From: Egibacter rhizosphaerae
GTDB lineage: Bacteria > Actinomycetota > Nitriliruptoria > Euzebyales > Egibacteraceae
Assembly: GCF_004322855.1 (NCBI RefSeq)
Contig: NZ_CP036402.1
Location: 3,596,001-3,660,000 of the forward strand
Length of the DNA stretch: 64,000 nt
Direction of reading: 5' to 3'
How positions within the stretch are numbered: position 1 is the first letter of the stretch; the number at the start of each line of letters is the position of its first letter. The translations under genes and the position numbers were made by a program. Shown piece after piece: positions 15,207 to 38,775 of this stretch. Below the pieces are notes generated by a model, which did no database searches, was not told the origin of the DNA, and was given only the letters and a program-made list of their open reading frames with translations.

Positions 15207-15279
15207 TGCCCCCGGCAGGATTCGAACCTGCGACACCCGGTTTAGGAAACCGGTGCTCTATCCCCTGAGCTACGGGGGC
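15207..15279 (-). tRNA. tRNA-Arg (anticodon CCU)
   Basis: Read on the minus strand, a complete 73-nt cloverleaf starts GCCCCCGTAGCTCAGGGGAT. The anticodon arm is CCGGT-TTCCTAA-ACCGG with anticodon CCT (reads AGG). The T arm contains GCAGGTTCGAATCCTGC and the acceptor stem closes with CGGGGGC plus discriminator A; CCA is not encoded. The 5' half, from the anticodon loop outward, is duplicated at 38737-38775 and marks an integration site. The 5' half and everything upstream therefore appear to come from the integrated island. Confidence 0.96.
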
Positions 15280-15280
15280 G
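15242..15280. repeat. attL: left copy of 39-bp direct repeat in tRNA-Arg
   Basis: This copy lies inside the tRNA gene, from the anticodon loop to one base past the 5' end. It is identical to 38737-38775; identity stops abruptly on both sides (T versus G before, T versus G after). The recombinase gene begins 90 bp away, the usual arrangement for an integration site. Confidence 0.88.
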
Positions 15281-15347
15281 TCGGATTACGCGCCGTTGAG
15301 CGGCTTCCGTCCCTGGAACAGTCCGCAGAGAGCTAGCACAACGCTCA

Positions 15348-15370
15348 CTGAGCGGATAACCTAGGCTCAG
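15348..15370 (+). promoter_or_regulatory. Inverted repeat and -10-like box abutting the recombinase start
   Basis: CTGAGC (15348-15353) and GCTCAG (15365-15370) form an inverted repeat ending directly at the ATG at 15371. Inside it are TAACCT and TAGGCT, either of which could be a -10 box of a near-leaderless transcript. It may be a site for autoregulation or a recombinase arm site. Confidence 0.4.
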
Positions 15371-16261
15371 ATGAGTGCCCGCGCAAGCGCCCTGACCAGC
15401 CTCCTCTCCTCGTGGGAGCTGTCGCTGCGAGCCGCGAACCGCTCCGAGCGGACCATCGAGGCCTACCGCCTCGCGGTGCGCCAACTCGCCGAGTACCTCG
15501 ACGACCCCGACGCCACCGAGGTGGGGCGGGCCGACATCGAGGCCTTCCTCGCTCACGTGCTCTCCAACCGTTCGCCAGCGACGGCACGCCAACGGTACCT
15601 GAGTCTCGGCGTGTTCTTCCGCTGGCTGGTGGAGGAGGAGGAGATCGACGCCAGCCCCATGGCCAAGGTCAAGGCCCCGCACGTGCCCGAGCAGCCCGTC
15701 CCAGTGGTCAGCGATGACCACTTCGCGGCCTTGCTGAAGGCCTGCCAGGGCAAGCAGTTCCCCGAACGTCGGGACACCGCGATCCTGCGCCTCTTCTACG
15801 ACACGGGCTCACGTCTCGGGGAAGTCGCGGGCCTTGAACTCGACCATCTCGACCTCACCGACCGCGTGGTCCACGTCCTCGGCAAAGGCAAACGCGGGCG
15901 GAGCACCCCCTTCGGGATCAAGACCGCCCAGGCCCTGGATCGCTACCTCCGCGCACGCGCGCGGCACAAGGCCGCCGACACGCCGTGGCTGTGGCTGGGG
16001 GACCGAGGTCCGATGACCCCGTCGGGGATCTCGCAGATGCTCAAGCGGCGGTGCGCCGAGGCAGGCATCGAACCCCTGAACCCGCATCGGTTTCGCCACA
16101 CCTTCGCCCACCAGTGGCTGGCCAACGGCGGACAGGAGCAGGACCTCATGCGCCTCGCGGGCTGGCGTTCCCCGCAGATGCTCTCCCGCTACGGCGCGTC
16201 CGCTGCCGACGAACGGGCGCGGGACGCCTACCGCAACCGCAGCCCCGGCGACAAGTTCTAA
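15371..16261 (+). CDS. Tyrosine recombinase/integrase (XerC/D-like), island integrase
   Basis: A 296-residue recombinase. The N-terminal SAM-like core-binding domain (about residues 10-95) contains ERTIEAYRLAVRQLAEYLDD; the catalytic domain has the arginine in TGSRLGEVAGLEL, the lysine region GKGKRGRSTPFG, HRFRHTFAH (box II His-x-x-Arg), LMRLAGWRSPQML and the nucleophilic tyrosine in SRYGAS. All catalytic residues are present. It lies 90 bp from attL, making it the best candidate for the enzyme that placed the island in tRNA-Arg. No excisionase is recognisable next to it. No Shine-Dalgarno sequence precedes the ATG, consistent with the promoter-like boxes touching the start. Confidence 0.92.
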   Translation: MSARASALTSLLSSWELSLRAANRSERTIEAYRLAVRQLAEYLDDPDATEVGRADIEAFLAHVLSNRSPATARQRYLSLGVFFRWLVEEEEIDASPMAKVKAPHVPEQPVPVVSDDHFAALLKACQGKQFPERRDTAILRLFYDTGSRLGEVAGLELDHLDLTDRVVHVLGKGKRGRSTPFGIKTAQALDRYLRARARHKAADTPWLWLGDRGPMTPSGISQMLKRRCAEAGIEPLNPHRFRHTFAHQWLANGGQEQDLMRLAGWRSPQMLSRYGASAADERARDAYRNRSPGDKF

Positions 16262-16296
16262 CCCCGAGCGGAGAGGGCAAGTCCGGAGCCCTCGGA

Positions 16297-17238
16297 CTAT
16301 TCGAGGTCGAGGAAGAAGTCCTCGTCGATGCGTTTGACGGGGTAGGTGTGGCGGGTGCTGACCCCGACGTGGTGCTCGATCATGAGTTGGGCGAGGTGCT
16401 GGCCGTCCACCAGCACGATGTGGTTGCCGATGTCGGCGGCGTAGCGGCGCGCTTCGTCGCTGAAGCGCGCGGTGGTGAGGAACACGCCCTTGCTCGCGCG
16501 GCGGCCTTGGAGCGCGCCGACGAAGGCTTGGACGTCGGGGCGGCCCACGGCGTGGTGGGGTTGCCAGCGTTTGGCTTGGATGTAGATGGCGTCCAGGCCG
16601 AGGCGGTCTTCGCGGATGACGCCGTCGATGCCGCCGTCGGCCACGCGTCCCAGGCGTTCCCCGGCTTCGGTGCGCGAGCCCCCGTAGCCCATGGCCAGCA
16701 GCAGGTCCACCACGATCTGCTCGAACTGCTCCGGGGCGACTTGGGTGAGCCGCTCACGCAGGTCGTCGGCGAGGGTGGCTTGCAGCTCGGCCCAGGCGGC
16801 TTGCAGCGCTTCTTCGGGCGTCGCGGTCTCGCTCGGTGTCGAGGGGGCGTGCTCAGGTCCGGACGGCGCGGGTGGGGTGTCGGTGCCCTTGCTCGTACTG
16901 CCGACGAACTCGCCGAACTCGGGGAACTGGAGCAGCACACTGCGGTCGATGCGCTCGTGGTTGTCGCCGAGAACTTGCTGGCCCCGCTCGGTGAGTCGGG
17001 TCACCCCACGGCCGGTGCGCTCGAGACAGCCCGCCTTGACGAGGTAGGTCACCGCCCAGTTGACCCGACTGTCGAAGTAGCGGAGCTGACCGCTAGGCAA
17101 CATGAGGTGGCGTTGCTCGTCGGAGAGGTCGAAGCGCTCGGCCAGGCGGTTGCGTAGTTCTGCGCGCCGCACCTCGTCGTGATGGGTGTGCTCGTCGAGG
17201 ACCGGGCGCATCAGCGTCTGAAAGTCGGGCAGGTCCAC
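16297..17238 (-). CDS. mrr: Mrr-type restriction endonuclease
   Basis: A 313-residue protein of Mrr architecture. Residues 1-95 form the Mrr N-terminal winged helix (DFQTLMRPVLDEHTHHDEVR, AGCLERTGRGVTRLTERG); a Pro/Ser/Thr linker follows (about 115-140); the C-terminal half is a PD-(D/E)xK nuclease with FEQIVVDLLLAMGYGG, the catalytic aspartate in ADGGIDGVI and the QAK motif in IYIQAKRW. Such enzymes cut DNA, often only when it carries foreign methylation (type IV restriction). It is convergent with the recombinase. A decayed relative of its C-terminus lies at 26061-26419 beside hsdR. The start ATG 17238 is the only one in front of the winged helix. Confidence 0.9.
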   Translation of the reverse strand: MDLPDFQTLMRPVLDEHTHHDEVRRAELRNRLAERFDLSDEQRHLMLPSGQLRYFDSRVNWAVTYLVKAGCLERTGRGVTRLTERGQQVLGDNHERIDRSVLLQFPEFGEFVGSTSKGTDTPPAPSGPEHAPSTPSETATPEEALQAAWAELQATLADDLRERLTQVAPEQFEQIVVDLLLAMGYGGSRTEAGERLGRVADGGIDGVIREDRLGLDAIYIQAKRWQPHHAVGRPDVQAFVGALQGRRASKGVFLTTARFSDEARRYAADIGNHIVLVDGQHLAQLMIEHHVGVSTRHTYPVKRIDEDFFLDLE

Positions 17239-17285
17239 CAGTTCGCTCCCGTCTCGGGTGCGCCGGGGATCCTAACCGGTGCGGC

Positions 17286-18266
17286 TCACGCCCCCACCGG
17301 GATGGCCCCGAGGGTGCGGGCGAGGCGGGGCATACGCCGAAGTCCCCAGACCCGTTCGATCCGTTGCTCTCGTGGTGATCGCGGAGTCGTCTCGTCCTGC
17401 TGCTGCTGCTGGTGGTGGTGGAGTTGTTGATCGACGTGGGCGGTGCGATCGGTGGGCACGAGCAGTTGGTAGCCGGGGCCGACGCGTTTCTTGATCGCGA
17501 CCGCGTCGTCGCGCAAGGCGCGTTGGGGGGCGGGGGCGGTGGCGTCAATCCACAGCTCGCCGCGTACGGGGTCGAGGCGCAGCGCGGACATCGCGACGAA
17601 CCCCACCAGGCCCATCCTCAAGTGGCGGACTTCGCGGTCAGCGAGGACGGGACCGCGACGCGGCCGGGTCAGCCAGCGGCGTTCCATATGCCCCAAGAGC
17701 CCTTCGTGAACGGCGCGGCTTGCCCAGGTGACTTCGGTGCGCAGCAGCCCGGACACGTCAGCGAGCGACAACTCGCGCGCGTCGGCGCTGAGCGCGGCAT
17801 GGCCCTCGCACAACGCGACGACCTGGAGCAACCCGCGCGGGAGTCGGGTGTCGGCGGCGAACAGGCCGGCGGGCGGGGCGGGCAGGTCCTCGTCGAGGGG
17901 GCACAGCGGACACCAGGCCAGCACGGCCGCGCCGAGCACGCGCTGCTCAGCAGCCCGGATGCCGTCGGGTCCGGCCAGTTCCACGCCGCCGAACTCGGCA
18001 TCCAGCAGTGCCATGCCCGCAAGTGCGGAGACCGAGGGTCGCAGTAGATCGAGGAGCTGGGTGGGCGTGTCGGTGGCGTAGAACCCACACGAGCACTCGG
18101 GGTCGGGCACCGCGTGGCGGCCCCGGAGGGTGCACACCGCGTGCTGCTCGGCGCGGTAAGGCGTGGTCTGGCCCCACGGCACGAACAGGCCCTCGCCGAC
18201 CTTGAGGTCAACTGCGAGGCTGGCGAACTTGACCCCCGCGCGCGGGGTGGCAAGCTCGGCGCTCAC
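17286..18266 (-). CDS. Unknown protein with CxCGFYA motif, island cargo
   Basis: A 326-residue soluble protein not assigned to a family. The N-terminal 70 residues contain LFVPWGQTTPYRAEQHAVC and PECSCGFYATDTPTQLL, a Cys-rich motif (CxC plus CPLC at about residues 138-141) that could bind zinc; this phrase recurs in actinobacterial plasmid and phage proteins. The middle is helical; the C-terminus has a striking HHHQQQQQ tract followed by an Arg-rich end. The GTG at 18266 overlaps the stop of the 47-residue gene (GTGA), and a 148-residue gene sharing a similar style lies just upstream, so the three form an operon. Function unknown. Confidence 0.7.
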   Translation of the reverse strand: MSAELATPRAGVKFASLAVDLKVGEGLFVPWGQTTPYRAEQHAVCTLRGRHAVPDPECSCGFYATDTPTQLLDLLRPSVSALAGMALLDAEFGGVELAGPDGIRAAEQRVLGAAVLAWCPLCPLDEDLPAPPAGLFAADTRLPRGLLQVVALCEGHAALSADARELSLADVSGLLRTEVTWASRAVHEGLLGHMERRWLTRPRRGPVLADREVRHLRMGLVGFVAMSALRLDPVRGELWIDATAPAPQRALRDDAVAIKKRVGPGYQLLVPTDRTAHVDQQLHHHQQQQQDETTPRSPREQRIERVWGLRRMPRLARTLGAIPVGA

Positions 18267-18406: not shown

Positions 18407-18458
18407 ACAAATACCTTTCCAGTTGGGTGAGCGCTTGGCGGGTGAGCTAGGGGCAGGG

Positions 18459-18905: not shown

Positions 18906-19259
18906 GCCGGGACCTCCTCGGGCTCTGGAGACCCCGCGCCCGCTACCCAACGGCAGCGAGGGGTGATCTCGCCCTTGCCCCGCACCGAATGGTGCGAAGC
19001 CCGCTCTTCCCCTGGGGCACCCGAACGCGAGTTTGGGGTTGCCGGGGCGGCCAGCCAGGTACCGATGACCGCCCTCTCTTGAGCTGACGCCAGTGTACGC
19101 CACCCAGGACCGTCAGGTGGACCCGCGACGGAGCCTTCTGGGGCACCGCGCTTTGCCCGGAGGGCCTGCCTCTTCACATGTCACGGACCTTTGCGAGGAT
19201 GGGGCGTGAACGTTCCGGGGGCGGGGGGCGGCCCTCGCATCACGCATAGGGGCGGAGAG
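18906..19259. other. 354-bp divergent intergenic region upstream of the hsd operon
   Basis: This stretch separates the minus-strand unknown-gene operon from the plus-strand hsd operon and should hold both promoters. No convincing gene or strong inverted repeat was found. In-frame TTG (19191) and GTG (19206) codons precede the chosen hsdM start. Confidence 0.5.
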
Positions 19260-21275
19260 TTGGCAGACAGCGAGACCATCAACAACCACGCAGCGTTCAT
19301 CTGGTCGGTCGCCGACCTGCTGCGCGGCGACTACAAGCAGTCCGAGTACGGGCGGGTGATCCTGCCGATGGTGGTGTTGCGCCGTCTGGACTGCGTCCTG
19401 GAACCCACAAAGCAACAAGTCCTTGCACGCGCCGAACAACTGTCGGGGAAGGTCGAGAACACCGAGCCGCTACTGCGCCAGGCCGCCGGGGAGCGGTTCT
19501 TCAACACCTCAAAGCTCACCCTGCCCAAGCTCCTCGACGACCCGACCAACATCGCCGATCAGCTCCATGCCTACCTGCTGGGGTTCTCCCCGGCCGCCAA
19601 GGATGTGCTGGAGAAGTTCGACCTGCCCGGCCACATCGACCGGCTCGACCGCGCCGATCTGCTGTACCTGGTGGTGTCACGGTTCTGCGACATCGACTTG
19701 CACCCGGAGCGGGTGTCGAACCTGGAGATGGGCTATCTGTACGAGGAGCTGATCCGCCGGTTCTCCGAGCTGTCCAACGAAACCGCCGGGGAGCACTTCA
19801 CTCCCCGCGAGGTCATCCGGCTGATGGTCAACCTGCTCTTCAGCGAGGACGACGCTGCCCTGTCCCGCCCCGGCGTCGTGTCCACCCTCTTCGACCCCGC
19901 CTGCGGAACCGGGGGGATGCTGTCGGTCGCCGAGGACCACCTGCGCCACCTCAACCCCGAGGCGCACCTGGAAGCCTACGGACAAGAACTGAACGCCGAG
20001 ACCTACGCGATCTGCCGCTCGGACATGATGCTCAAAGGCCAAGACGCCTCCCGCATCCAGCTCGGCAACAGCTTCTCCGACGACGCCTTCGGTGGCCTGG
20101 CCTTCGATTACATGCTCGCCAACCCCCCGTTCGGGGTCGAGTGGAAGAAGGTCGAAAAGCCCATCAAGGACGAGGCGGAGTCGAAGGGGTTCGCGGGCCG
20201 GTTCGGGGCGGGGCTGCCGCGCATCAACGACGGCAGCTTCCTGTTCTTGCAGCACATGATCTCCAAGATGAAACCCCCCGAGCAGGGCGGCTCCCGGTTA
20301 GCGATCGTGTTCAACGGCTCCCCGCTGTTCACGGGCAGCGCAGGCTCCGGCGAGTCGGAGATCCGCCGCTGGATCATCGAAAGCGACTGGCTCGAAGCCG
20401 TCATCGCCCTGCCCGACCAGCTCTTCTACAACACCGGGATCTCCACCTACTTCTGGGTGGTCACCAACCGCAAACGCCCCGAACGGCGCGGCAAGGTCCA
20501 GCTCATCGACGCCCGCGACTACTGGACCAAGATGCGCAAGTCTCTCGGCGAGAAGCGCAAGGAACTCTCCCCCGACCACATCGCCGACATCACCCGCATC
20601 TACGGCGACTTCGAAGAAGGCGAGCACTCCAAGATCCTGCCCAACGAAGCGCTCGGGTTCCTGCGCATCACCGTCGAACGACCCCTCAGGCTGCGCTGGG
20701 AGGTCACCGAGCACACGCTGGCCGCCCTGCGGGCCGCCAAGCCGCTCGCCAAGCTCGACCCCAACATCCTCGACGACCTCGCAGGCGCGCTCGCCAACCA
20801 CACCGGCCTGACCTCCACCGACCGCGCCGACCTCGAACCCGCCGTCACCCCGGTGATCTCCGCCGCCGGGCTCACCAAGCCGCAGACCAAAGCGGTGTGG
20901 GACGCCCTCGCCGTCCGCGACCCCCACGCACCGGTCATCACCAACCGCAAAGGCGACCCCGAACCCGACCCCGAACTCCGCGACCAAGAGAACGTCGCCC
21001 TCCCCCAGCGGCCGGTCCGCTACGAAGCCGACCCCACCGCCCGACTGGACACCATCGAGCACCGCACCGCCATCGACAACCACCTCGAAACAGAGATCCG
21101 CCCCTACGTCCCCGACGCCTGGATCGACCACACCAAAACCAAAATCGGTTACGAGATCCCCCTCACCCGCCACTTCTATAAATACCAGCCACCCCGGCCC
21201 CTCGACGAGATCGACACCGAGATCAGACAACTCGAAGCCGAGATCCAGCAACTCCTCAACGAGGTCACGGAGTGA
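19260..21275 (+). CDS. hsdM: Type I restriction-modification DNA methyltransferase subunit
   Basis: A 671-residue N6-adenine methyltransferase. The N-terminal helical domain opens ADSETINNHAAFIWSVADLLRG and contains SEYGRVILPMVVLRRLDCVL, typical of HsdM; the catalytic part has HFTPREVIRLMVNLL, the SAM motif DPACGTGGML (about residue 215) and motif IV NPPFG (about residue 290). A coiled-coil-like C-terminus ends in ETEIRQLEAEIQQLLNEV. The TTG at 19260 after GGCGGAGAG is preferred because homologues begin at this position; upstream TTG 19191 or GTG 19206 would add up to 23 unmatched residues. It forms the methylase with HsdS and the restriction complex with HsdR. The stop overlaps the hsdS GTG. 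Confidence 0.93.
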   Translation: MADSETINNHAAFIWSVADLLRGDYKQSEYGRVILPMVVLRRLDCVLEPTKQQVLARAEQLSGKVENTEPLLRQAAGERFFNTSKLTLPKLLDDPTNIADQLHAYLLGFSPAAKDVLEKFDLPGHIDRLDRADLLYLVVSRFCDIDLHPERVSNLEMGYLYEELIRRFSELSNETAGEHFTPREVIRLMVNLLFSEDDAALSRPGVVSTLFDPACGTGGMLSVAEDHLRHLNPEAHLEAYGQELNAETYAICRSDMMLKGQDASRIQLGNSFSDDAFGGLAFDYMLANPPFGVEWKKVEKPIKDEAESKGFAGRFGAGLPRINDGSFLFLQHMISKMKPPEQGGSRLAIVFNGSPLFTGSAGSGESEIRRWIIESDWLEAVIALPDQLFYNTGISTYFWVVTNRKRPERRGKVQLIDARDYWTKMRKSLGEKRKELSPDHIADITRIYGDFEEGEHSKILPNEALGFLRITVERPLRLRWEVTEHTLAALRAAKPLAKLDPNILDDLAGALANHTGLTSTDRADLEPAVTPVISAAGLTKPQTKAVWDALAVRDPHAPVITNRKGDPEPDPELRDQENVALPQRPVRYEADPTARLDTIEHRTAIDNHLETEIRPYVPDAWIDHTKTKIGYEIPLTRHFYKYQPPRPLDEIDTEIRQLEAEIQQLLNEVTE

Positions 21276-22531
21276 ACTGGCACCCCGGCCCCCTCAAGTA
21301 CTGGCTGGAACTAAATGACTCCGGAACTTGGGGAGAGGACCCAGTCGGGACCGACGATACGGCCGTGGTCCGATCCACAGACATCAACCTTGATGGTTCC
21401 TGGAACATCGATGATGTCGCGCGGCGTTCACTTCACCCAGGCGAAAAGATCGCCAAGCGACTAAGTAGAGGGGACCTCGTCGTTGTGAAGTCCAGCGGGT
21501 CGGCGGATCACCTCGGAAAGACGGCCATCGTTGGGTCCGATGTGGAGGCTTTGGAAGCCTGTTTTTCCAACTTTGTTCAGAGACTGCGACCCTGTGGGCA
21601 GGCGGACCCACGGTACGTATGGTACCTATTAAACTCCAAGAAAGCCGCGTCAGAACTGCAATTGTTGGGTACCACCGCCACCGGTCTGCGCAACCTCAAT
21701 GGCGGGATCATTGGGTCGGTCACTTTTCCCGGTCCACGGCTTGCCGAGCAGCGGGCGATCGCGGACTTCCTCGACGCCGAGACCGCTCGTATCGACGCTC
21801 TAATCGCGTCCAAGGAGAGACTAGCCAGTGCACTAGCGGCTCGAAGTCAAGCCATCACGGACCGGTCAATGGTTCCTCGTCAGTTGGGTGGCGTGGCGGA
21901 CGACGGACGGGACGAGTGGCCCGTTATCAAGTTGAAGCATATAGCCACCTACTACACGGATGGGGATTGGATCGAAACTCCATACATCACGGATGATGGA
22001 ATCCGTCTTATTCAAACGGGCAACATTGGACCAGGAAGATTCAAAGATCAAGGGTTTCGCTTCATCAGTGAGCCGACGTTCCAAGAGCTCCGGTGCACCG
22101 AGGTGTTCCCTGGCGATGTCCTTATCTCCCGCCTGGCGGGCACTCTAGGCCAAGCTTGTGTTGCTCCCGATCTCGGCACGCGGATGATTACCGCCGTGGA
22201 TGTAGTGATCTTGCGCCCCACTTCATGGGTGGATCCGGAGTTCTTGGTTATGTATTTGTCCACCTCAAGACACCTGGGTGTGGCTGAACTTAATGCGAGA
22301 GGCACGACCATGCTGCGGCTATCACGCTCACAGGTGGGTGATATGCACGCACCGCTCCCACCGGTCGACATCCAACGTCAAGCGGTCTGGCGCGTTCACC
22401 GATCTCTAGATGCTGTCAACCGTGTGTTGGACAAGCTATCAAGCCAGTTGGGTCTTCTCCGTGAACGCCGGCAGGCGCTGATCACCTCGGCAGTATCGGG
22501 GGAGTTGGAGGGTTCGGGGGTGGCGGCGTGA
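21272..22531 (+). CDS. hsdS: Type I restriction-modification specificity subunit
   Basis: A 419-residue HsdS with two target-recognition domains, each followed by a conserved helix. The first TRD (about 1-150) ends in TFPGPRLAEQRAIADFLDAETARIDALI, the second (about 215-365) ends in APLPPVDIQRQAVWRVHRSLDAV, matching the usual LPPLxEQ pattern and spacer helices. It decides the bipartite DNA sequence methylated and cut. GTG 21272 overlaps the hsdM stop, and its own stop overlaps the hsdR start. Codons in both TRDs are visibly richer in A and T than the flanking hsdM and hsdR genes, as expected when target domains are exchanged by recombination. The recognition sequence cannot be predicted. Confidence 0.93.
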   Translation: MNWHPGPLKYWLELNDSGTWGEDPVGTDDTAVVRSTDINLDGSWNIDDVARRSLHPGEKIAKRLSRGDLVVVKSSGSADHLGKTAIVGSDVEALEACFSNFVQRLRPCGQADPRYVWYLLNSKKAASELQLLGTTATGLRNLNGGIIGSVTFPGPRLAEQRAIADFLDAETARIDALIASKERLASALAARSQAITDRSMVPRQLGGVADDGRDEWPVIKLKHIATYYTDGDWIETPYITDDGIRLIQTGNIGPGRFKDQGFRFISEPTFQELRCTEVFPGDVLISRLAGTLGQACVAPDLGTRMITAVDVVILRPTSWVDPEFLVMYLSTSRHLGVAELNARGTTMLRLSRSQVGDMHAPLPPVDIQRQAVWRVHRSLDAVNRVLDKLSSQLGLLRERRQALITSAVSGELEGSGVAA

Positions 22532-25500
22532 GTGGGGTGGATGAGAGCGCATTTGAGGGGTTCATCTGCGGCCGGCTCGGCACGCACGGGGGCTATGGGG
22601 CGGTCAAGGACGGGCAGGACTTCGACGCCGGGCTGGGGTTGGACTTCGTGGATTTGTTCGGGTTCGTGGAGGAGACCCAGGCTGAGCGGTGGGTGGAGTT
22701 GGTGAAGCGATACGGGGGCGAGGCGGGGGTGGCGCGGGATCGGTTCTCAGCCCGTTTGGGGGCCGAACTGGACAAGCGGGGTGTGGTGGATGTGCTGCGC
22801 GGGGGGCTGGTGGATCAGGGGGTGACGTTCCGACTGGCGTTCTTCCGCCCCGCGCATGGGCTGACGTCGGACCTGGTGGCCAGGTATGAGGCGAACCGCG
22901 TGACGGTGACCCGCCAGCTCGGCTATGAGCCTGGGTCGAGCAAGTCGGTGGACCTGGGCCTGTTGGTCAACGGGATCCCGGTCGCCACGGCGGAGTTGAA
23001 GAACCCGCTGACCGGGCAGGGGGTGGACGAAGCGATCGCTCAGTACCGCAAGCGAGATGCGAAGAACCTAACGTTGGCTCGGGCGGTGGTGCACTTCGCG
23101 GTGGACCCCCAGCGGGTGGCGATGACCACACGCCTGGCAGGGCCACGGACTCGGTTTCTGCCGTTCAACCGGGGTCACGGGCGGGGGGCGGGCAACCCGG
23201 CGAACCCGGAGGGGCATGCGTCGTCATATCTGTGGGAGCGGGTGTGGCAGCGCGACGCCTGGTTGGATCTACTCTCCCGGTTCGTGCACGTCGAGAAGCC
23301 CGGCAAGGGGTCGCGCAGACCGGCTTCGGTGATCTTTCCCCGGTTTCATCAGTGGGAGGCGGTGCGGGTCTTGGAGGACGCCGCTGCCGAGGAAGGGGCC
23401 GGGCACAACTATCTGGTGCAGCACTCCGCCGGATCCGGGAAGTCGAACACGATCGCGTGGCTGGCGCATCGCCTGTCGACCTTGCACGCCGGGGACGCGA
23501 AGGTGTTCGACAAGGTGGTGGTGATCACCGACCGGGTGGTACTCGACCGCCAGCTTCAGGAGACGATCTATCAGTTCGAGCACGCCCACGGGGTAGTCGA
23601 GCGGATCGAGCAGTCCTCCGCCCAGCTCGCGGAGGCGTTGGCCGGTGAGCGGGCGCGGATCGTGGTGACGACATTACAGAAGTTCCCGTTCGTGCTCACC
23701 CACGTCGAGGGGCTGCCCGACCGGCGGTATGCAGTGCTGGTGGACGAGGCGCACTCCTCCCAGACCGGGGAGGCCGCCAAGGAACTCCGCCGGGTGCTCG
23801 GCGCAGCCACCCCCACCGCCAGCTCAACCGACGGGGACGGTGAGGATGCGGAACTGGCTCCGGGGGATGTGGAGGAGGCGCTGGCCGACGCGGTCGCCGC
23901 CAGAGGGCGACAGTCGAATATGAGCTTCTTCGCGTTCACCGCCACGCCGAAGGGCAAGACCCTGGAGCTGTTCGGCCGCTACGACCCCTCGACGGGGCGG
24001 CATGAGCCGTTTCATCTGTACTCGATGCGCCAGGCGATCGAGGAGGGGTTCATCCACGACGTGCTGGCCAACTTCACCACCTACCAGACGTTTTGGCGGT
24101 TGGAGAAGGCCATCGGCGAGGACCCGGCGTATGAGACCGCCAAGGCCCGCAAGGCCATCGCCCGGTTCGTGACCTTGCATGAGCACAACCTCTCCCAGAA
24201 GGCCGCGATCGTCGTCGACCACTTCCAAGAGCATGTCGCGCACAAGGTGGCCGGGCAGGCCAAGGCGATGGTGGTGTGCTCCTCGCGCGCGCACGCGGTG
24301 CGGTTCTTCTGGGCTCTGCGCGCCCATGTCGACGAGCACGGCCATGATCTCGGGGTGCTGGTCGCGTTCTCAGGGGCGGTGACCCCCAACGGCGGCGAGC
24401 CGGTCACCGAAGCTCAGTGCAACGGCTTCGGGGAGTCGGAGACCGCCGCGCGGTTCGACACCGACGACTACCAGATCATGGTCGTGGCGGAGAAGTTCCA
24501 GACCGGCTTCGATCAACCCAAGCTGTACGCGATGTACGTGGACAAGCCACTAACCGGGCTAGCGGCGGTGCAGACCCTCTCACGGCTCAACCGCACCCAC
24601 CCCGACAAGGACGGCACGTTCGTACTCGACTTCGTCAACGACGCCGACGACATCGCCGAGGCGTTCGAGCCCTACTACGGCGAGACCGTCGCCCCGCCCA
24701 GCGACCCCAACCTGCTGTACGACACCCGCCATCAACTCGACGAGTTCGGGGTGCTGCGCACCGACGAGGCCACCGCCGTCGCGGGGTTCCTGCTCGCGCC
24801 AGAGGACAACCACGACCGCGTGCATGCCGCCCTGACCCCGGCGATCGACCGGTTCTGGGACCTCGAAGAGAGCGAGCAGGAGCGGTTCCGCGACGCGCTC
24901 GGCCGGTTCGTGCGCACCTACGCCTTCCTGTCCCAGATCGTCTCGTTCACCGACACCACCCTGGAGCGCGACTACCTCTACACCAAAGCCCTGGGCCAGT
25001 TCATCAAAGCCGCGCCCGGCGAATCGGTCGACCTCGGCGACGAAGTCGAGCTGACCCACCTACGTCACGAGCAACGCTTCACCGGGTCGGTCGCCCTCGA
25101 CGTTGACACTGGCGAGGTCTCCACCATCTACTCAGGGCAAGGACGCACCACCGAGCCCGACCCGGAGCCGCTGTCGGAGATCATCCACCGGCTCAACGCC
25201 CAATACGGCACCGACTGGTCCGAGCAAGACCGGCTCGTATTCGACGCCGCCCTCGAAGACCTCGTCGCCGATGCCGACTTCCAGGTCACCGCCGTCAACA
25301 ACACCCCAGAGAACTTCTCGGTCGTGTTCCCCGACCTGTACCAGAACAAGCTGCTCGGGCGGCTCGACCGCAACGAGAAAGTCGTCTTCGGCTACCTCGA
25401 CGACCCCGACCTGCAAGCCGAGATCCACAAAGTCTATGCCACCCTCGCTCAAGCCCGCGCCAAAGTCGCCTACCAAGAACACTGCCCCATCGCCGAGCTG

Positions 25501-26419: not shown

Positions 26420-26506
26420 CTACATCCTGTCGCGCGTTCTCGACTCTATGACCTCCGGTTGCTTCGCCCGCCAGACAGGCGGCCGAACGAACGTAGGGGG
26501 AATCTG

Positions 26507-29004: not shown

Positions 29005-29949
29005 ATGGACAGTAGCCTCGGGATACCTTCGCACGGCACCATTGAGGTTCTTGGTGATGGCCTTCCCGAGCGGACCGGGGTCACCGCGCAAGACGTTGCC
29101 ATCGCGTGGTTGCTCGGCTACGCCAACGAACGAACCCGCAATGCCTATCAGGCTGACCTCCGCGACTGGTCGGCATGGTGCCGCACGCACGAAGTTGATC
29201 CTCTGGGTGGAGCGACGCGCGCGCATGTGAACATCTACTCGCGATGGCTTGAGGGCCAGGGCCGCAGCCGCGCCACCATTGCCCGCCGGTTGGCGACTTT
29301 GTCCTCGTACTACCGCTACTGCGTGATTGAGGGCCACCTTGAGCGCAACCCCGTCGAGCACGTCCGACGCCCCAAGATCGATGACGCGAGCCACACCAAG
29401 GGCCTTGACACGCGAGACGCGATCGCGCTGCTCGACGCCGCCGAAGACGCCAGCGCACGCGACCACGCGCTGGCGTGCCTGCTGCTATTGAACGGGCTGC
29501 GTGTTGGCGAAGCCTGCGGGCTGGACATCCAGGACGTCGGCGAGCAGCGAGGCCACCGCACCATCACGATCAGGCGCAAGGGCGGCAAACGCGTGACCCG
29601 CGCGCTGGCTCCTCGCGCGGCCGGGGCCGTGCACGAGACCGTCGGGGACCGGGAAGCCGGGCCGGTGTTGTGTGACCTGGACGGGGCGCGTCTGGACCGT
29701 CACGACGCCACCCGCGTGGTGCGCAGGCTGGCTCGCGAGGTTCTGCCTCGGGCTCGGGCAGATCGGATCACTCCGCACAGCCTGCGGCACAGCGCCGCAA
29801 CCATCGCCCTGGACGCCGGGGTGCCGCTGCACCGGGTGCAAGATCTGCTTGGGCACGCCGACCCGCGCACCACGCGACGGTACGACCGCGCCCGCGACAG
29901 CCTCGACTCCGACGCTACCTACGCCCTCGCGGGGCACCTCGCCCGCTGA
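29005..29949 (+). CDS. Second tyrosine recombinase (XerD-like) inside the island
   Basis: A 314-residue recombinase. N-terminal core-binding domain: NERTRNAYQADLRDWSAWC and RSRATIARRLATLSSYYRYC, ending ERNPVEHVRRPK. Catalytic domain: arginine in LLNGLRVGEACGLDI, beta-hairpin lysine in IRRKGGKRVTRAL, HSLRHSAATIALD, LGHADPRTTRRYDR with the nucleophile tyrosine. All active-site residues are present. It differs clearly from the integrase at 15371. It lies in mid-island, directly before one copy of the 130-nt repeat, so it may have arrived with the following cargo or may act on sites inside the island. The operator over its promoter indicates regulated expression. Confidence 0.92.
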   Translation: MDSSLGIPSHGTIEVLGDGLPERTGVTAQDVAIAWLLGYANERTRNAYQADLRDWSAWCRTHEVDPLGGATRAHVNIYSRWLEGQGRSRATIARRLATLSSYYRYCVIEGHLERNPVEHVRRPKIDDASHTKGLDTRDAIALLDAAEDASARDHALACLLLLNGLRVGEACGLDIQDVGEQRGHRTITIRRKGGKRVTRALAPRAAGAVHETVGDREAGPVLCDLDGARLDRHDATRVVRRLAREVLPRARADRITPHSLRHSAATIALDAGVPLHRVQDLLGHADPRTTRRYDRARDSLDSDATYALAGHLAR

Positions 29950-30321: not shown

Positions 30322-32637
30322 TTAGGATGCGTCCTGATTGATGTCGTGGAGGCCCCCTTGGAAGTTGGCGTCCTCCAGTGTCATCTCCGGTTCGCCGATG
30401 ACAGGGTCAACTTGGCTTGCCGTGCCCTCTAGGGCACATGAGATGACCATCCCGTTGTTCTGGCCTACGAGCGCGCCAACGATGTCGCCGTCGCCAGCGA
30501 CGCCCCCCTTAGCGGTCGAGCCTTCGAGGCGTCCCTCAAAGTTGTAGCCCACGAGACCGCCAATCCGGGCCCCCGTCCCGGTCACGCCTCCTTCGGCTGT
30601 GCCATCGATGACCACGGCCCCGCTGACGATTCCAGCGGCGTTGTTGAGACCAACGAGGCCACCGACGTCGTTCAGGCCGGTGACGTCGCCCGTCGCTACA
30701 GCGGTGTCGATCGAACCGCCCTCGTTGTGCCCGACGAGTCCGCCCACTTGGGCTTCTTCTCCGGTGACGTGGCCTTGTGCGGTGGACTCTGCGATCTCTC
30801 CCAAGTTGGATCCGACGAGGCCGCCGATCGTCGAATCCCCGCTGACCTCTCCGTGGGCTGACGAGTGGCTCACGAGTCCGGAGTCGGGACCGGGAAAGTG
30901 GATGCCGATGAGCCCGCCCACCTGGCTGCCCCCGGTGGCCGCGCCTTGCGCTTCGGAGCCCGTGACGTACCCGGAGTTGTAGCCGACGAGGCCGCCGACA
31001 CTCAAGTCCCCTCTCACTTCCGTAGCGGTTGTGGATTCGTCGATGGTCGCATGGTGGAAGTTTTGGCCCGTGAGCCCACCCACTCTCGAGTTCCCGCTCA
31101 CCGTCCCGTCCGTGACCGAGTGGCTGATCGACCCGCCGTTCTTGCCCACGAGGCCACCGACCCAGTTCATGCCTGCCACGTTGACGTTGGTGAGGTGAAC
31201 GTCTGCGATGGCTGCGTCGATACCGGTTTCGCTGAACAGCCCGACACCGTCGTCGCCAGAACGGTCGATTGTCAGACCATCGATCGCATACCCCTGGCCA
31301 TCCAAGCTGCCGGTGAAGGGGTCGTCGTCGAACGTGCCGATCGGGTCCCACCCCGCGTCTTCGGCGTAGACCCCGGCACCGAGGTCAATGTCGTTGACCA
31401 GGACGTAGCTGCCGTCCAGGTCGTCACGTATCCCGTCCAGGTCCTCCGGCGTGCTGATGTGCACAGGACTCGGGTCTGGCTCGGGGTCCGGGTCTGGATC
31501 GGGGTTCGGGTCTGGCTCGGGGTCCGGGTCTGGCTCGGGGTCCGGGTCTGGCTCGGGGTCCGGGTCTGGCTCGGGGTCCGGGTCTGGCTCGGGGTCCGGG
31601 TCTGGATCGGGCTCACTCTCGGTGGAAGCAGCCGTATACAGTTGAGCGGCCACCGTGTCACTGATGGCGGCTTGCCCGCCCAGGACATAGACGTCGCTGA
31701 CGCGTTCCGCGTGTTCCACCAAGAACGCCTCGGTGTAGCCGCTGACCTGCTGACCTGGGGTAAGCAGAAGGATCCCGCCCAGGCGTGCGGCTACAGCAGT
31801 GCCCGACAGCGCGTCAGGGAAAGCGCCGCCGGTGGCCATAACGACAGGCACCGTCCCGTCTTGCCGGTCAAGTGCCTCGGAGGCCGCATAGGCAGAAGTC
31901 TGATAACGGTCGGTTCCTGCTAGCCGCTCCGGCTGGGCGCCGATGCCTGCAACCTCAACATCGATGGTGTCATCGAGTACTGCCGAGCCTCCCATGACGT
32001 ACACCTGCGACACCGCAAGGGGACCCTCTAACGTGTCCAAGGTTGCCTGGGGTGCTCCAGTACTTCTCGCGAGCAAGACAGGTAGACGGTCGGGGCTGGC
32101 CGCCAGGGTCCCCGCTGAGACTGCGTCGGGAAAGTCGGTGCCCACCGCCACCGTTGCCGCGTTCGCGGGCGCGGCCACTTCCGTCGCGACCTCGACAGCG
32201 GTCGCGTATCGGTCTCTCCCCGAAAGCCGGGTTGCCCCTACACCCATCGCATCGAGGTCGTCGGCCACGTGATCACCGATCACCGCATCCCCACCGACGA
32301 TCCACACAGTTTCAGCGCCCAGCCGGTCTATCTCGTCGGTGACCCTGCCGTCCAGCTCGTCCCCCGGAGTGAGCAGAAGGGGGGCGTCAAGGTGCGCTGT
32401 GAGCGCCCCCGCCGCAAGGGCATCGGGAAAGTCGGTGGAGACCGCGAGGACCACGTGCTCGCTGGTCTCCCATAGCTGGCTGGTGGCCACGGCGGTAGCA
32501 ATCCGATCAGGCCCGTGTAAACGCTCAGGCCCTTCGTCTCCGATGGCCGTGCCCGATAACGTGATAAGACCCACTGTGATCACGGCGATGATGAGACCCA
32601 TCCCCAAGAGCGCGGGTGCTACCCCTCGATACGTCAT
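30322..32637 (-). CDS. Surface protein: CWB2 repeats, Pro-Asp linker, GLUG repeats
   Basis: A 771-residue exported protein. A signal segment (VAPALLGMGLIIAVITVGLITL) is followed by three cell-wall-binding-2 repeats (about 40-330), each with the GxDRYxTA and FPDALxxG motifs and VYVLGGxAAIS ends. Residues of about 342-390 are a Pro-Asp/Glu-Pro linker encoded by 18-bp tandem DNA repeats. The C-terminal 370 residues begin HISTPEDLDGIRDDLDGSYVLVNDIDLG and contain about seven GLUG repeats (VGGLVGxN), a module of adhesins and IgA-protease-like proteins. The CWB2 part should anchor it to the cell envelope, displaying the GLUG region outward. ATG 32637 follows GGGGGATCT. It is bracketed by the two structured repeats. 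Confidence 0.9.
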   Translation of the reverse strand: MTYRGVAPALLGMGLIIAVITVGLITLSGTAIGDEGPERLHGPDRIATAVATSQLWETSEHVVLAVSTDFPDALAAGALTAHLDAPLLLTPGDELDGRVTDEIDRLGAETVWIVGGDAVIGDHVADDLDAMGVGATRLSGRDRYATAVEVATEVAAPANAATVAVGTDFPDAVSAGTLAASPDRLPVLLARSTGAPQATLDTLEGPLAVSQVYVMGGSAVLDDTIDVEVAGIGAQPERLAGTDRYQTSAYAASEALDRQDGTVPVVMATGGAFPDALSGTAVAARLGGILLLTPGQQVSGYTEAFLVEHAERVSDVYVLGGQAAISDTVAAQLYTAASTESEPDPDPDPEPDPDPEPDPDPEPDPDPEPDPDPEPDPNPDPDPDPEPDPSPVHISTPEDLDGIRDDLDGSYVLVNDIDLGAGVYAEDAGWDPIGTFDDDPFTGSLDGQGYAIDGLTIDRSGDDGVGLFSETGIDAAIADVHLTNVNVAGMNWVGGLVGKNGGSISHSVTDGTVSGNSRVGGLTGQNFHHATIDESTTATEVRGDLSVGGLVGYNSGYVTGSEAQGAATGGSQVGGLIGIHFPGPDSGLVSHSSAHGEVSGDSTIGGLVGSNLGEIAESTAQGHVTGEEAQVGGLVGHNEGGSIDTAVATGDVTGLNDVGGLVGLNNAAGIVSGAVVIDGTAEGGVTGTGARIGGLVGYNFEGRLEGSTAKGGVAGDGDIVGALVGQNNGMVISCALEGTASQVDPVIGEPEMTLEDANFQGGLHDINQDAS
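31470..31615. repeat. 18-bp in-frame tandem repeats encoding the Pro-Asp linker
   Basis: About eight units of CTCGGGGTCCGGGTCTGG with a few changes (CTGGATCGGGG variants). Each unit encodes six residues of the PDPEPD type. Such arrays change copy number by slippage, altering linker length without breaking the frame. Confidence 0.85.
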
Positions 32638-32916
32638 AGATCCCCCGCTGCCAGGCGCATCCGCCCCTGCACCAAAGGCGCGAGGTTCGCATTTGCGCAG
32701 ACCTTCCCGCCTATCGATCAGCAGAGCGCCATGCTGGGCCCACCGCCCCAAGCGAACGCCCCCGATCCCCAGCACTGTACTACCCGCCGAGCCCCTTGCG
32801 TGGGTGATGCCGTTGTCCGCCGGACGGTAGGACCACTGCCGTTGCCTACGCCGACGGCGATCCCTAGGGCTACCTCGTGTCCCAGCCAGATCGGCGCGGG
32901 GCCACTACACTCTGCT

Positions 32917-33043: not shown

Positions 33044-33068
33044 AGCTCTGTCGAGATTGGAACCCGAA

Positions 33069-34774: not shown

Positions 34775-35590
34775 TCAGGGCCCGAGGGTGCACGGCTGGC
34801 GGTGAGCCTCGCCGTGTTGATCTTCCCACGTCACTGTCAAGTCCCATGTCAGGCCGTGTCCCGCGAGACCGCCAGCCAGCGGGAACCTGACCGAGGACTG
34901 GGGCGCGAGCGCCGAGATGGGCTCGAAGCCTCCGACCGTGCGTGCGCCCTCCCCGGTTTCGATGTTCACGTTGTAGGCGGTGGTGTCGCCGATGTTGCGC
35001 AGGACGAGCTTGGGGTGGGTCTTGTGCTTGATCTGTCCCTTGCTGTTGGTTTCGGAGCGTCGGTCCGGATCGACTTCGGCGGTGATCTGCGCGGGGCGGC
35101 TGGTGTTGAGGGAGAACTCCGCTGCGAAACCGGGACGGGAAGCGAAGGCTGTCCCGAGTTCGTGGACGGTCATCGGGCGGTTCGACGGGCCTGAGCGTAG
35201 GTAGCCGCGACCGGCGACGAGGTGGGGACGGCGCTCACTGCTCTCCACCCGCACGACGAGTACGCCCCTCCCGTCGTCTTGGATCGCGACCTCCTCGGCC
35301 TCCACAAGTACCAGCGGCTCATCGACTGAATCGCGAGCGATGTTGGCGAGCTTCTCGGCGGCACCGTCAAGATCGATTGGAGTGATAGTCTCGGCAAGGT
35401 TGCGGGGGGCGCTGAGACCGAAGATCAACACGCCCCCGGCCGTGTTCGCCATCGCCGCGAGAGTCCTGGCGCTGGTGTTGGTGTCGATCTCGGTCTTGAA
35501 GTCGCGCCACACACTCTCCTGGGCTTTCTCGCTGACGAGCTGGCGCACCTCCTCGGGAGTGCGTGGCATGTGGATGGCCTCGTTCCTCAT
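34775..35590 (-). CDS. AlbA_2 (Schlafen-like) domain protein
   Basis: A 271-residue protein. The N-terminal 150 residues form an AlbA_2 domain: ESVWRDFKTEIDTNTSARTLAAMANTAGG, with VLIFGLSAPRN, then VLVVRVESSERRPHLV and GYLRSGPSNRPM. This matches the fold appended to HsdR in the same island (E-x-K then AFANS-GG-LLIGV). The C-terminal 100 residues look like a beta-sandwich (LVLRNIGDTTAYNVNIETGE, LTWDLTVTWEDQ). AlbA_2 proteins are seen as nucleic-acid or ATP-binding regulators and in defence-related contexts. It follows the Rep gene by 91 bp on the same strand, so it may be co-transcribed with the replication module. ATG 35590 is shown; ATG 35569 is an alternative. Confidence 0.75.
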   Translation of the reverse strand: MRNEAIHMPRTPEEVRQLVSEKAQESVWRDFKTEIDTNTSARTLAAMANTAGGVLIFGLSAPRNLAETITPIDLDGAAEKLANIARDSVDEPLVLVEAEEVAIQDDGRGVLVVRVESSERRPHLVAGRGYLRSGPSNRPMTVHELGTAFASRPGFAAEFSLNTSRPAQITAEVDPDRRSETNSKGQIKHKTHPKLVLRNIGDTTAYNVNIETGEGARTVGGFEPISALAPQSSVRFPLAGGLAGHGLTWDLTVTWEDQHGEAHRQPCTLGP

Positions 35591-35681
35591 GGCCCGGCTC
35601 GTTCCACCTTCGATCAGCCTTCCCTGCCACGCCGGAGTGTACGGGCCGGTGCTGATTGAGCGCGAGCCGGTTCAGTCGCGC

Positions 35682-36803
35682 TTAACGTCTCCTTCTTGGC
35701 CTGGCGCTCTGGATTTCAACCCCGGACTCCAGATCGAGTCGCCTAGCGCCTCGCCCGTCCAGTACCGGAGCGCCTCCGACTTGGTCTAGAAGGTCGCGAT
35801 ACTTCTTGCGGGTAGCCGAGGCTCGGCTGGGCTGGCGGCCGTTGATCTGCCGGTACATGTCTGCGATGAGTGCGTCCTCTGTACGTGGGTCGAGATCGAG
35901 CTTTGCGATAGCGTCCAGGAAGGAGCGCGGGCTATATAGCCATGCTCCCATCCTCGCGTGGTCCCACCGGTTGAGGAACAAGTCTGTGGCCTTGGCAGCG
36001 GTGAGGTCACACGGCGCTTTGATGCCCCCGTACCGAGTGAGCCAGCCACGCTTGCGGGCTTGAAGCTCGACGCGCAGGGTCTTCGACCTCCGGAATCCCG
36101 AGTCGTAGACGCGGAACGTGCCCGCCGTCTTCGTGCCCACATACAGGGTGGAGGCTTCGCCGGTCTCGGTCTCGCTGAACACCCGCAACATGGACGCGCG
36201 GGGACGAGGTACGCGCCTGAGGGCCTCGATGAGAACCTCGGGCTTGGACTCGATGGAGAAGTCCCGAGCGATGTCCACTCGGGTGACTGACCCCTGGTCT
36301 TGAACCTCCTCAAGGTCCAACACGGGGCGAAGCTCCCGCTCTACCACCGCCCAGATCTCCGCCAACAAATCCGGGAGCACCTCGGATAGGGAAGACACCG
36401 CGCACCTCGGGTTGAAGCTGAGCACTCCATAAAACCTCTCGTAGAAGGGGTGCACAAACTCTCCTAGCCGAGGATTGAAGGCACCCAAACTGAAGTCGTG
36501 GCCACCGGTTGTACTTCTCCTGCGCCGCCAGTACTGCGACGCCTTGGGTTCTCTTATGGGAAAGGACAACTCGACCTTGTCAACCAAGAGTTCGCGGGCG
36601 TGGGCGGTGAGGTCTACTTCGCGGGCGGCTTGTTCGCTTCGTGAAGTGGTTCCGGGGGTGTTACTAGGGCCGTGGAATAGGGTTGGGGTATCGCTAGGAC
36701 TTGCTTCTTTCTGCTTGCGAGGAGTCCGTGCGTGCGTTGTCGGGGGCTTAGCTGGGTTATTGACGAAGCGGACGCGTCGGCGTGGCACTCTGGAAGTGCT
36801 CAT
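35682..36803 (-). CDS. Rep-like replication initiation protein of the island
   Basis: The 373-residue frame from ATG 36803 contains GSVTRVDIARDFSIE, ASTLYVGTKTAGTFRVYDSGFRRSKTLRVELQARKRG and WDHARMGAWL, the order seen in replication-initiation factors of rolling-circle plasmids (an Arg-x-Asp strand, then GS/T-x-RxYDK, then RxEL). A basic N-terminal tail (VPRRRVRFVNN) precedes the domain. It should start replication of an excised circular form. Upstream of 36803 the same frame stays coding-like as far as a G/C run at 37063-37068, where it would join the prim-pol frame if one base were removed, so the two may be a single polypeptide. Family assignment is by pattern only. Confidence 0.6.
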   Translation of the reverse strand: MSTSRVPRRRVRFVNNPAKPPTTHARTPRKQKEASPSDTPTLFHGPSNTPGTTSRSEQAAREVDLTAHARELLVDKVELSFPIREPKASQYWRRRRSTTGGHDFSLGAFNPRLGEFVHPFYERFYGVLSFNPRCAVSSLSEVLPDLLAEIWAVVERELRPVLDLEEVQDQGSVTRVDIARDFSIESKPEVLIEALRRVPRPRASMLRVFSETETGEASTLYVGTKTAGTFRVYDSGFRRSKTLRVELQARKRGWLTRYGGIKAPCDLTAAKATDLFLNRWDHARMGAWLYSPRSFLDAIAKLDLDPRTEDALIADMYRQINGRQPSRASATRKKYRDLLDQVGGAPVLDGRGARRLDLESGVEIQSARPRRRR

Positions 36804-36903
36804 CGGGAGCAAACCAAGGGGGTCTTGGGAGCCAGATCTTGCGAGTTGCCTGGCCGGCTCGGGTGCTTCGTGGTCGGAGCACTGTGCAACGAACTGCCCA
36901 CCA

Positions 36904-38001
36904 TCAACGGTCTCGTTCGAGGGGTTCTCGCCTCGAAGCAGTTGGCCGGACTCCCCGAGGTCGGTGTGCGCCTCGACGTCTTGCGGCGCTGCCGTCTCGG
37001 CGGTCGGGAATCTCGCTGCGGGTTCTCTGTTTGCGCGGTGTGGGACACCAACACCGTGCTGCGGGGGGCCCGTCGGTGAACTTGGCGATTGCGCCGTGGA
37101 CGGCCCGATCGAACTCGCCCAGAGTGGGGCGGTCGCGCGCGGCATGCTCGAAGGCGTCGCGCAGGATCCTCAGTGCCGATCGGACGCCGCGATGCCCGTC
37201 TTGTGCCGCCCGAATCAGCCGAGCGGACCCCACAAGCATCGCGTGGTGCCGCGAGCCGCCGCCCCTCAGTTCTTCACAAGCATCCTCGGTCAGCCGGCAG
37301 GTCTTGGCGCACACGGGCTCGTCGTCAAGGAGTCCAAGCCACGCCTCACCTGCGTGAGCATCAACGACCGCCGGACTGCCGGCCTCGCAAGACAGCGCTC
37401 GTATCCAGACCACCGGAAGCTGAGCGAGGTCGGAGGGGCGAGGTAGACCCTCGAGCGGGATCGTCTCCCCGCTGGCCTCGTGCACCCACCGATATCGGGT
37501 CCGACTTAGGGGATTCCAGGAAGGTGCGGTAACCGCGTACCGGTGGCCTTCGTGAATGACCTCGACGCCATCACCCACGTCCTGCCAGCCCAGGCCCACT
37601 GGAACGCCGAACCAACGGATCCCCGAGGGCAATGGCCGGGAGGTCGAAACAAGGGTCTGCGGGAGCGGGCCGAGTTCTCGCTCCCACAACTCGAGTGTCG
37701 CGCCGCCACGCTTGTCGCCGTAGTTATCGACATCGATGCCGAGGACGCCCTGCGGTGGACGCAGGGCAATGTTGCCGCTCGGCTGCTCCCGAGCCCACCT
37801 CCGAGCTTGCTTCTCGCTGACCGCCTTGCCGCCCCACCCGGTAAAGCCCCGTGGTGGCGGTGTCTTCTTCCTGGGCGGCAGAAGCAACGTGTTCGACCAG
37901 CCGCGCGCCTGATAGGCCTCAAACGCACTAGCGAACGGGGTACGGTGGCCCTTTCGAGGAGATGGTCTCCTACGACCGCGCTTTCGGGTAAGATCGGCCA
38001 C
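36904..38001 (-). CDS. Bifunctional DNA primase/polymerase (prim-pol) of the island
   Basis: A 365-residue frame starting at GTG 38001 with AAGGAGA 8 nt upstream. The prim-pol domain is clear: FASAFEAYQARGWSNTLLLPPRKKTPPPRGFTGW, GNIALRPPQGVLGIDVDNYGDKRGG with the catalytic Asp-x-Asp, TSRPLPSGIRWFGV and GHRYAVTAPSWNP. Such proteins prime and copy DNA in actinobacterial integrative plasmids and phages. The last 55 or so residues (after KFTDGPP) become Arg-rich and shadow-like, while the alternate frame downstream of the C6 run looks natural and leads into Rep, suggesting a frame break at 37063-37068. Confidence 0.8.
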   Translation of the reverse strand: MADLTRKRGRRRPSPRKGHRTPFASAFEAYQARGWSNTLLLPPRKKTPPPRGFTGWGGKAVSEKQARRWAREQPSGNIALRPPQGVLGIDVDNYGDKRGGATLELWERELGPLPQTLVSTSRPLPSGIRWFGVPVGLGWQDVGDGVEVIHEGHRYAVTAPSWNPLSRTRYRWVHEASGETIPLEGLPRPSDLAQLPVVWIRALSCEAGSPAVVDAHAGEAWLGLLDDEPVCAKTCRLTEDACEELRGGGSRHHAMLVGSARLIRAAQDGHRGVRSALRILRDAFEHAARDRPTLGEFDRAVHGAIAKFTDGPPAARCWCPTPRKQRTRSEIPDRRDGSAARRRGAHRPRGVRPTASRREPLERDR

Positions 38002-38043
38002 AGCTGATCTCCTTCACGCAGGGGGAGTTACAGTGATCGCTAG

Positions 38044-38074
38044 AAGGCCCCGAGGACTAAGTGCTCGGGGCCTT
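38044..38074. terminator. Strong 11-bp terminator hairpin containing the stop of the 128-residue gene
   Basis: AAGGCCCCGAG (38044-38054) and CTCGGGGCCTT (38064-38074) flank a 9-nt loop, with TTCTTC following on the plus strand. The last codons and the TAG stop (38057-38059) of the minus-strand gene are read from inside this hairpin. Confidence 0.8.
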
Positions 38075-38443
38075 CTTCATCGCCGGGTTCGGAACGAATC
38101 GCGGGCGCCGACGCTGACGCCTAGGAGCAACCTCGGCGACTGGGGTCTCTTCTCGGCGATGACGCGCGTCCCGTTTGCCACGTTTCTGCTCGCTCCGCTT
38201 GCGGCTCGACTCGAAGGAGAGTCGCGCCATGTAGGAGGCGCGGGCGTGCTCGGCCCGGCGGATCCGTTCGGCCTCGGGAAGCTCGCGATCAGGGTCAACC
38301 TCGTCGCTGAAGCGCTCGAGGAACGCCTCCCGGCCAGGCTGCGTGGCCGCGCGGGGGTCACGCTCCTTGGCCCAGCGGGCGTGGGCCGCCATGCGGGCGC
38401 GCAGAACGCGCTGTTCTGGCGTAAGTGAGTTCGAGGACGCCAT
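38057..38443 (-). CDS. Small basic protein of actinobacterial plasmid/phage type
   Basis: A 128-residue, strongly charged, helical protein: SNSLTPEQRVLRARMAAHARWAKERDPR at the N-terminus, then PGREAFLERFSDEVDPDRELPEAERIRRAEHARASYMARLSFES and an Arg/Lys-rich tail. The LTPEQR...RMAAHARWAK phrase is common in unnamed proteins of actinobacterial mobile elements. The basic tail suggests nucleic-acid binding; a regulatory role in replication or excision is possible but unproven. It precedes the prim-pol gene on the same strand, separated by the terminator in which its own C-terminus is encoded. Confidence 0.7.
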   Translation of the reverse strand: MASSNSLTPEQRVLRARMAAHARWAKERDPRAATQPGREAFLERFSDEVDPDRELPEAERIRRAEHARASYMARLSFESSRKRSEQKRGKRDARHRREETPVAEVAPRRQRRRPRFVPNPAMKKAPST

Positions 38444-38575
38444 GGGAACCTCCGTAGTCCGGGCACAGGTAGCGGAACCGCGCGGGTGCCTCGGATACGG
38501 AGTTCTGCTTCGGCGGCTACAGGAATAGTAGCATCACGGCGCTGCTAGCCCGCACGATCGCTCGTGTCCCACTTT

Positions 38576-38637
38576 CCCTTGCCGAGTACGGCCCCTAATG
38601 GCCGCCCAACGTCCCGTCGGCTCGCGCTCGGCAAGGG
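38576..38637. repeat. 11-bp perfect inverted repeat near attR
   Basis: CCCTTGCCGAG (38576-38586) and CTCGGCAAGGG (38627-38637) are separated by 40 bp, about 100 bp inside attR in a gene-free stretch (38444-38736). Possible recombinase arm sites, a replication or nicking site, or a hairpin. Confidence 0.5.
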
Positions 38638-38736
38638 CGTCATGAACGGATCCACAATTCAGCACATAACCTTGCCGCAAGAGGCTGCCGAAAAGTTGTT
38701 AACGCCCTGGTTAGCATGGCGGATAGTCCGGCATTG

Positions 38737-38775
38737 TTAGGAAACCGGTGCTCTATCCCCTGAGCTACGGGGGCG
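38737..38775. repeat. attR: right copy of the 39-bp repeat (tRNA-Arg 5' half only)
   Basis: Identical to 15242-15280 but not followed by the 3' half of a tRNA. It marks the right edge of the island. The sequence to the right should be the tRNA gene's original upstream region, now cut off from it by 23.5 kb. Confidence 0.88.

Follow-up and report, generated by a model that had tools for sequence, protein, structure and literature searches.

A defence island inserted from the 5' side of the tRNA-Arg(CCU) gene of Egibacter rhizosphaerae

A 23.5 kb mobile island carrying defence genes sits in an arginine tRNA gene of Egibacter rhizosphaerae and was inserted from the 5' side of this gene. We demonstrate here the anatomy of its junctions, the empty site in relatives and the mirror-image relation of the element to the rest of its integrase family. 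Integrase-driven recombination with tRNA-Arg(CCU), in which the element brought its own copy of the tRNA 5' half, is by far the most probable origin of this arrangement.

Attachment repeats and the site in relatives

The window, i.e. the whole 64 kb stretch of DNA analysed here, contains a single tRNA gene according to ARAGORN, annotated as tRNA-Arg(CCT). This tRNA-Arg(CCU) is intact, lies on the minus strand at 15205-15279 and was also recognised by comparison with relatives. The exact 39 bp repeat that the original prediction had placed at 15242-15280 and 38737-38775 is present, with both copies in the same orientation; a chance occurrence of an exact 39-mer is not expected within 64 kb. On the minus strand, the left copy spans positions 1-38 of the tRNA and the base just upstream; its inner limit, position 38, is where the 7-nt anticodon loop ends. 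The right copy, also on the minus strand, is an orphan 5' half of the same tRNA. When the genome was searched with its own tRNA region, high-identity matches were limited to the intact copy and the orphan half, the other matches being tRNA-Arg(CCG), tRNA-Arg(UCU) and tRNA-Lys(CUU). The tyrosine recombinase expected beside the left copy was found as well: it starts at 15371, 91 bp from the repeat, reads away from the 5' end of the tRNA and has all its catalytic residues.

Relatives lacking the island indicate which half of the gene is original. The DNA left of the tRNA was syntenic in same-family relatives (L219 and L224), mostly at 66-76% identity, up to the same tRNA, and this synteny ended at tRNA-Arg(CCU) in genomes G009 and G018. 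At the 5' side of the tRNA, the island was absent and the gene joined sequence similar to the window right of 38775, over 86 bp at 91% in L219, 534 bp at 74% in L221 and 296 bp at 72% in L222, apparently a misbinned contig. L221 has its tRNA and 3' flank in common with L219, as L222 has with L224. The comparison genomes were drafts from other genera, and among them no long similarity to both flanks was found on one contig. An island-free relative in which the tRNA is joined to the DNA right of 38775, the comparison proposed along with the original prediction, was seen in these three loci. Because relatives show this junction, the central claim is supported too: the 3' half stayed in place, and the element gave the current 5' half together with the DNA upstream of it. 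Relatives have kept the native leader, in which CGCGGA motifs recur and a TAnnnT stands 83-106 bp upstream. In the window, this leader (38776-38858, minus strand) now precedes the orphan half, which is the original chromosomal one. The native leader and its promoter thus lie 23.5 kb away from the tRNA, whose working 5' half, together with whichever promoter now drives it, comes from the island.

A repeat of this kind could also have arisen without the integrase, by homologous recombination or by a segmental duplication. Such an origin is highly improbable, since the repeat ends exactly with the anticodon loop, as the integrase-family rule has it, an intact integrase adjoins the repeat and the insert is absent from relatives. 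A different objection, which we also consider improbable but would take more seriously, is that an older island, inserted at the same tRNA, makes up the region right of 38775; the promoter taken here as native would then come from an earlier insertion. It draws on the end of upstream similarity among relatives after 58-86 bp in L219, L220 and L223, on two contigs of G009 with identical tRNA and 3' flank but differing upstream DNA, on a weak match of 38915-39283 to a defence-system HTH (HTH_IX) and on the island-like G+C at 40-43 kb. However, the leader and the -10 beside the tRNA are kept across genera, whatever stands further out, and no relatives of the window integrase were found in L219, L221 and L222.

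Some features of the surrounding DNA are recorded here in their own right. The stretch 38915-39283, just right of the orphan half, encodes a small HTH-like protein, and in relatives DNA resembling it is found in several different settings. At 40000-43000, G+C drops to 64-66% and an HNH endonuclease gene is found (41692-42543), a region that looks island-like yet lies outside the repeats. The two G009 contigs, L219 and L221, differ in a way that suggests either another insertion on the 5' side or variation between strains. In L226 (G018:C62, 1130-4633), DNA like that of 39048-39398 directly adjoins DNA like that of 53365-56412, at 87%; judging from this junction, the stretch from 39.4 to 53.4 kb may have been inserted or rearranged as well.

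Integrase family and cargo

The integrase (15371-16261, plus strand; PF00589, PF13495; phrog_1) is a Xer-like protein of 296 aa without an arm-binding domain. Its catalytic set is complete (R148, K172, H239, R242, W265, Y274), and the nearest relatives found were about 60% identical. Among the tree members with a tRNA close upstream of the integrase, the tRNA 3' end is directed toward the integrase gene in 28, the 5' end in three (the window, L229 and L081). Where both repeat ends were readable, the limits of the repeats could be compared. Those of the 3' type start exactly with the anticodon loop (L061, 32-74; L089, 33-77) or one base earlier (L078, L168, L235) and extend to the tRNA 3' end or near it. 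Those of the 5' type, in the window and in L081/L260 from Chloroflexi, stop at the last base of the loop. Both types overlap in essentially just the 7 bp of the loop, with near-symmetric stem arms around it. Judged from these sequences, the window element is the mirror image of the family norm, in which the 5' half is retained and the 3' half rebuilt, and the Chloroflexi element is a second proven 5'-type case in this integrase family. Because the two types of repeat have only the loop in common, we infer that the loop, TTCCTAA in the window (15242-15248, minus strand, between the arms gcaccggt / accgggtg), is the crossover segment. Strand exchange would thus occur inside the anticodon loop, and polarity would be set by the tRNA half carried in attP.

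L229/L047 and L232/L058 were not retained as proven 5'-type elements: the arrangement is present, but an orphan 5' half was not found in these draft genomes. The integrase of L232 is broken. The integrase tree requires two changes of polarity, for which reason we did not adopt a single origin of 5' use, with which the tree would also be compatible. In G021 and G023, two contigs with tRNA-Arg(ACG) break at the anticodon loop (L255-L258), and 3'-half and 5'-half fragments of this tRNA are both present in G021. In these two genomes tRNA-Arg(ACG) is likely a hotspot used from both sides.

The element of about 23.5 kb has a G+C content of mostly 60-70%, as compared to 67-77% in the flanks. Its cargo had been described as plasmid-type, and this holds in part. 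A replication gene of the bifunctional primase-polymerase (Prim-Pol) type and a second recombinase are indeed present, but most of the cargo is concerned with defence, and a scan of the larger island ORFs and part of the small ones gave no conjugation or transfer gene, including any with an FtsK/TraB-like domain. Next to the integrase, on the minus strand, lie a gene for a Mrr-like type IV restriction enzyme (16297-17238; PF04471, PF14338; mREase_IV, 6e-85) and an ORF of unknown function to which the family search gave no match (17286-18266). Family matches on the plus strand identified a type I restriction-modification system, composed of the methyltransferase HsdM (19191-21275), the specificity subunit HsdS (21272-22531) and the restriction subunit HsdR with a C-terminal Schlafen AlbA_2 domain (22528-26037), followed by an OLD/GajA/AriA-like AAA ATPase, probably a defence protein (26459-28465). 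The second tyrosine recombinase, XerC-like and 25% identical to the first, is encoded on the same strand at 29005-29949, without an associated repeat or tRNA. The remaining genes are on the minus strand. They encode a surface protein with CWB2 and GLUG repeats (30322-32775) and a Schlafen AlbA_2 domain protein (34775-35590), both from family matches, the Prim-Pol (36904-38001; PF09250; phrog_1156, 1e-45), whose relatives belong to actinobacterial phages (up to 37% identity) and a few plasmids, and a small ORF (38057-38443) with a weak phage-family match (phrog_2842, 7e-5). The ORF at 35682-37145, also on the minus strand, might be guessed from its position to be a replication protein; it had neither a family nor a plasmid match, and we dropped it as a plasmid Rep after the plasmid search had given nothing.

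From this gene content we would call the island an integrative element that replicates, or once did, and carries defence genes as cargo. Among known systems it can be compared with the actinomycete integrative elements that have Prim-Pol replication, the AICEs (PMC3218068). AICEs carry an integrase, a Rep of the RepSA, RepAM or Prim-Pol type and an FtsK/TraB-like transfer protein, and their attB lies in the 3' end of a tRNA gene. The window element resembles them in its integrase beside a tRNA, its Prim-Pol-type replication gene and its actinobacterial relatives. It differs in using the 5' and not the 3' half, and an FtsK/TraB-type gene was absent among the ORFs examined.

Promoter exchange and the insertion model

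During insertion, the Xer-like integrase would recombine the 23.5 kb element, with its Prim-Pol and defence genes, into tRNA-Arg(CCU). The crossover would fall within the 7-bp anticodon loop, the flanking stem arms serving as a near-symmetric core. The attP of the element would be a copy of the tRNA 5' half plus loop, and the 3' half would therefore be left in place. Insertion would rebuild an identical tRNA with the element-borne 5' half, while pushing the original 5' half, the native leader and the promoter to the far end (38737 on). There, the native promoter would now read the orphan half and point into the island end with the minus-strand Prim-Pol gene. Integration may in this way have swapped promoters between tRNA and element.

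The original prediction had located the new tRNA promoter in 15281-15370, a region shared with the divergent integrase gene. A candidate does lie there, and it overlaps a candidate -10 of the integrase gene by 5 bp in the motif TAACCTA (15357-15363, both strands). On the tRNA strand, TAGGTT (15358-15363) is the sole TAnnnT in 15280-15371 and stands 84 bp before the tRNA. On the other strand, TAACCT stands 8 bp before the ATG of the integrase gene, as would suit the -10 of a leaderless gene; such genes are common in actinobacteria (PMC3898074). Both assignments are motif matches; a consensus scan recognised no -35 element, and promoter and terminator consensus scans gave nothing at either island junction. 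The native -10-like TAGGCT (38853-38858) stands 84 bp before the orphan half, and the same distance occurs in L032. An exact match at 84 bp has a chance of about 1 in 110, with 0.77 TAnnnT expected over 87 positions, and of about 1 in 30 if the native distances of 83, 95 and 106 are also allowed. The -10 match is short. Across relatives, native tRNA-Arg(CCU) -10-like motifs (38853-38858, L219-L223, L032) are found upstream of the tRNA at distances of 83/84, 95 or 106 bp; in this set of only seven sequences, the spacing grows by about 11 bp, roughly one helical turn, at a time.

These motifs make a promoter shared between integrase and tRNA a serious possibility, if one still somewhat short of probable. 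The tRNA would then be transcribed from the minus-strand -10 at 15358-15363, and this putative -10 would be common to the tRNA and the divergent integrase gene, itself probably leaderless; RNA polymerase could then transcribe either gene but not both at once. The overlap might instead be coincidental, with the tRNA promoter situated inside the integrase gene, in antisense, or elsewhere in 15281-15370, such as at TGTGCTA 61 bp upstream of the tRNA; we find this conceivable but rather doubtful. L229 and L232 also have TGTGCTA at exactly 61 bp, and in both it continues into a good -10 (TACCAT, TAGGGT). In the window, however, this site reads TAGCTC and thus misses the final T, and in L229 and L232 the motif is part of a leader that is also found in G021 and G023, on contigs without integrase match. 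This last observation led us to discard TGTGCTA as the main promoter candidate. Starting from the shared -10, one may go further and propose that transcription of a needed tRNA competes with that of the integrase gene and so keeps the island integrated, and that the near-symmetric core lets the family switch between 3' and 5' use by the half carried in attP, if a 5'-type element brings a promoter at the native distance. Taken as a whole, this extended proposal is unlikely.

The original prediction had also raised the concern that excision might endanger AGG decoding. This worry appears weak. In the inferred attB the tRNA is intact and has its native leader, so that precise excision would rebuild an identical tRNA under its native promoter at no cost to AGG decoding. 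Furthermore, the genome has a tRNA-Arg(UCU), which can read AGG by wobble, and of the Arg codons, AGG makes up 14 of 399 in the flank genes sampled and 26 of 514 in those of the island.

Precedents and significance

Use of the 5' half has known precedents. In Islander, 159 of 3919 islands leave a 5' tDNA fragment, as against 3760 with a 3' fragment, and 2083 sites are anticodon-centred (PMC4383910). Islander-type 5' tDNA islands have the same tyrosine integrase, anticodon-loop crossover, displaced 5' fragment and regenerated tRNA (PMC4383910). The window element likewise combines a tyrosine integrase, an intact tRNA at one end with a same-orientation 5' fragment upstream at the other, and an uninterrupted site in relatives; no structural difference could be demonstrated. 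It is a well-resolved addition to a rare, already known insertion type, and what goes beyond the Islander-type description is the promoter arrangement and the integrase-family context examined here.

Rebuilt bacterial tRNAs nearly always retain their original promoter (reviewed in PMC8371274). The archaeal pTN3-like elements, the other precedent, use the tRNA 5' half, and their tRNA is expressed from the promoter of the integrase, which is rarely the case in bacteria (PMC8371274, PMC5495485). With these integrases, too, attB is the 5' half and the rebuilt tRNA is severed from its original promoter; their integrase gene, however, is disrupted on integration, whereas that of the window is intact and divergent. 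As to expression of the rebuilt tRNA from the integrase promoter region, the window offers overlapping candidate -10 motifs only. Phages with tRNA-dependent lysogeny also supply tRNA function after integration at a tRNA, but they leave the tRNA broken and carry a whole one, whereas the window tRNA is rebuilt (PMC10865867).

In conclusion, the island provides a clean bacterial example of a tRNA gene whose promoter and leader an element appears to have taken over, and the comparison within its integrase family lets both polarities meet in the same 7 bp. It also suggests a testable explanation for the rarity of 5'-type islands, namely that the promoter must come along.
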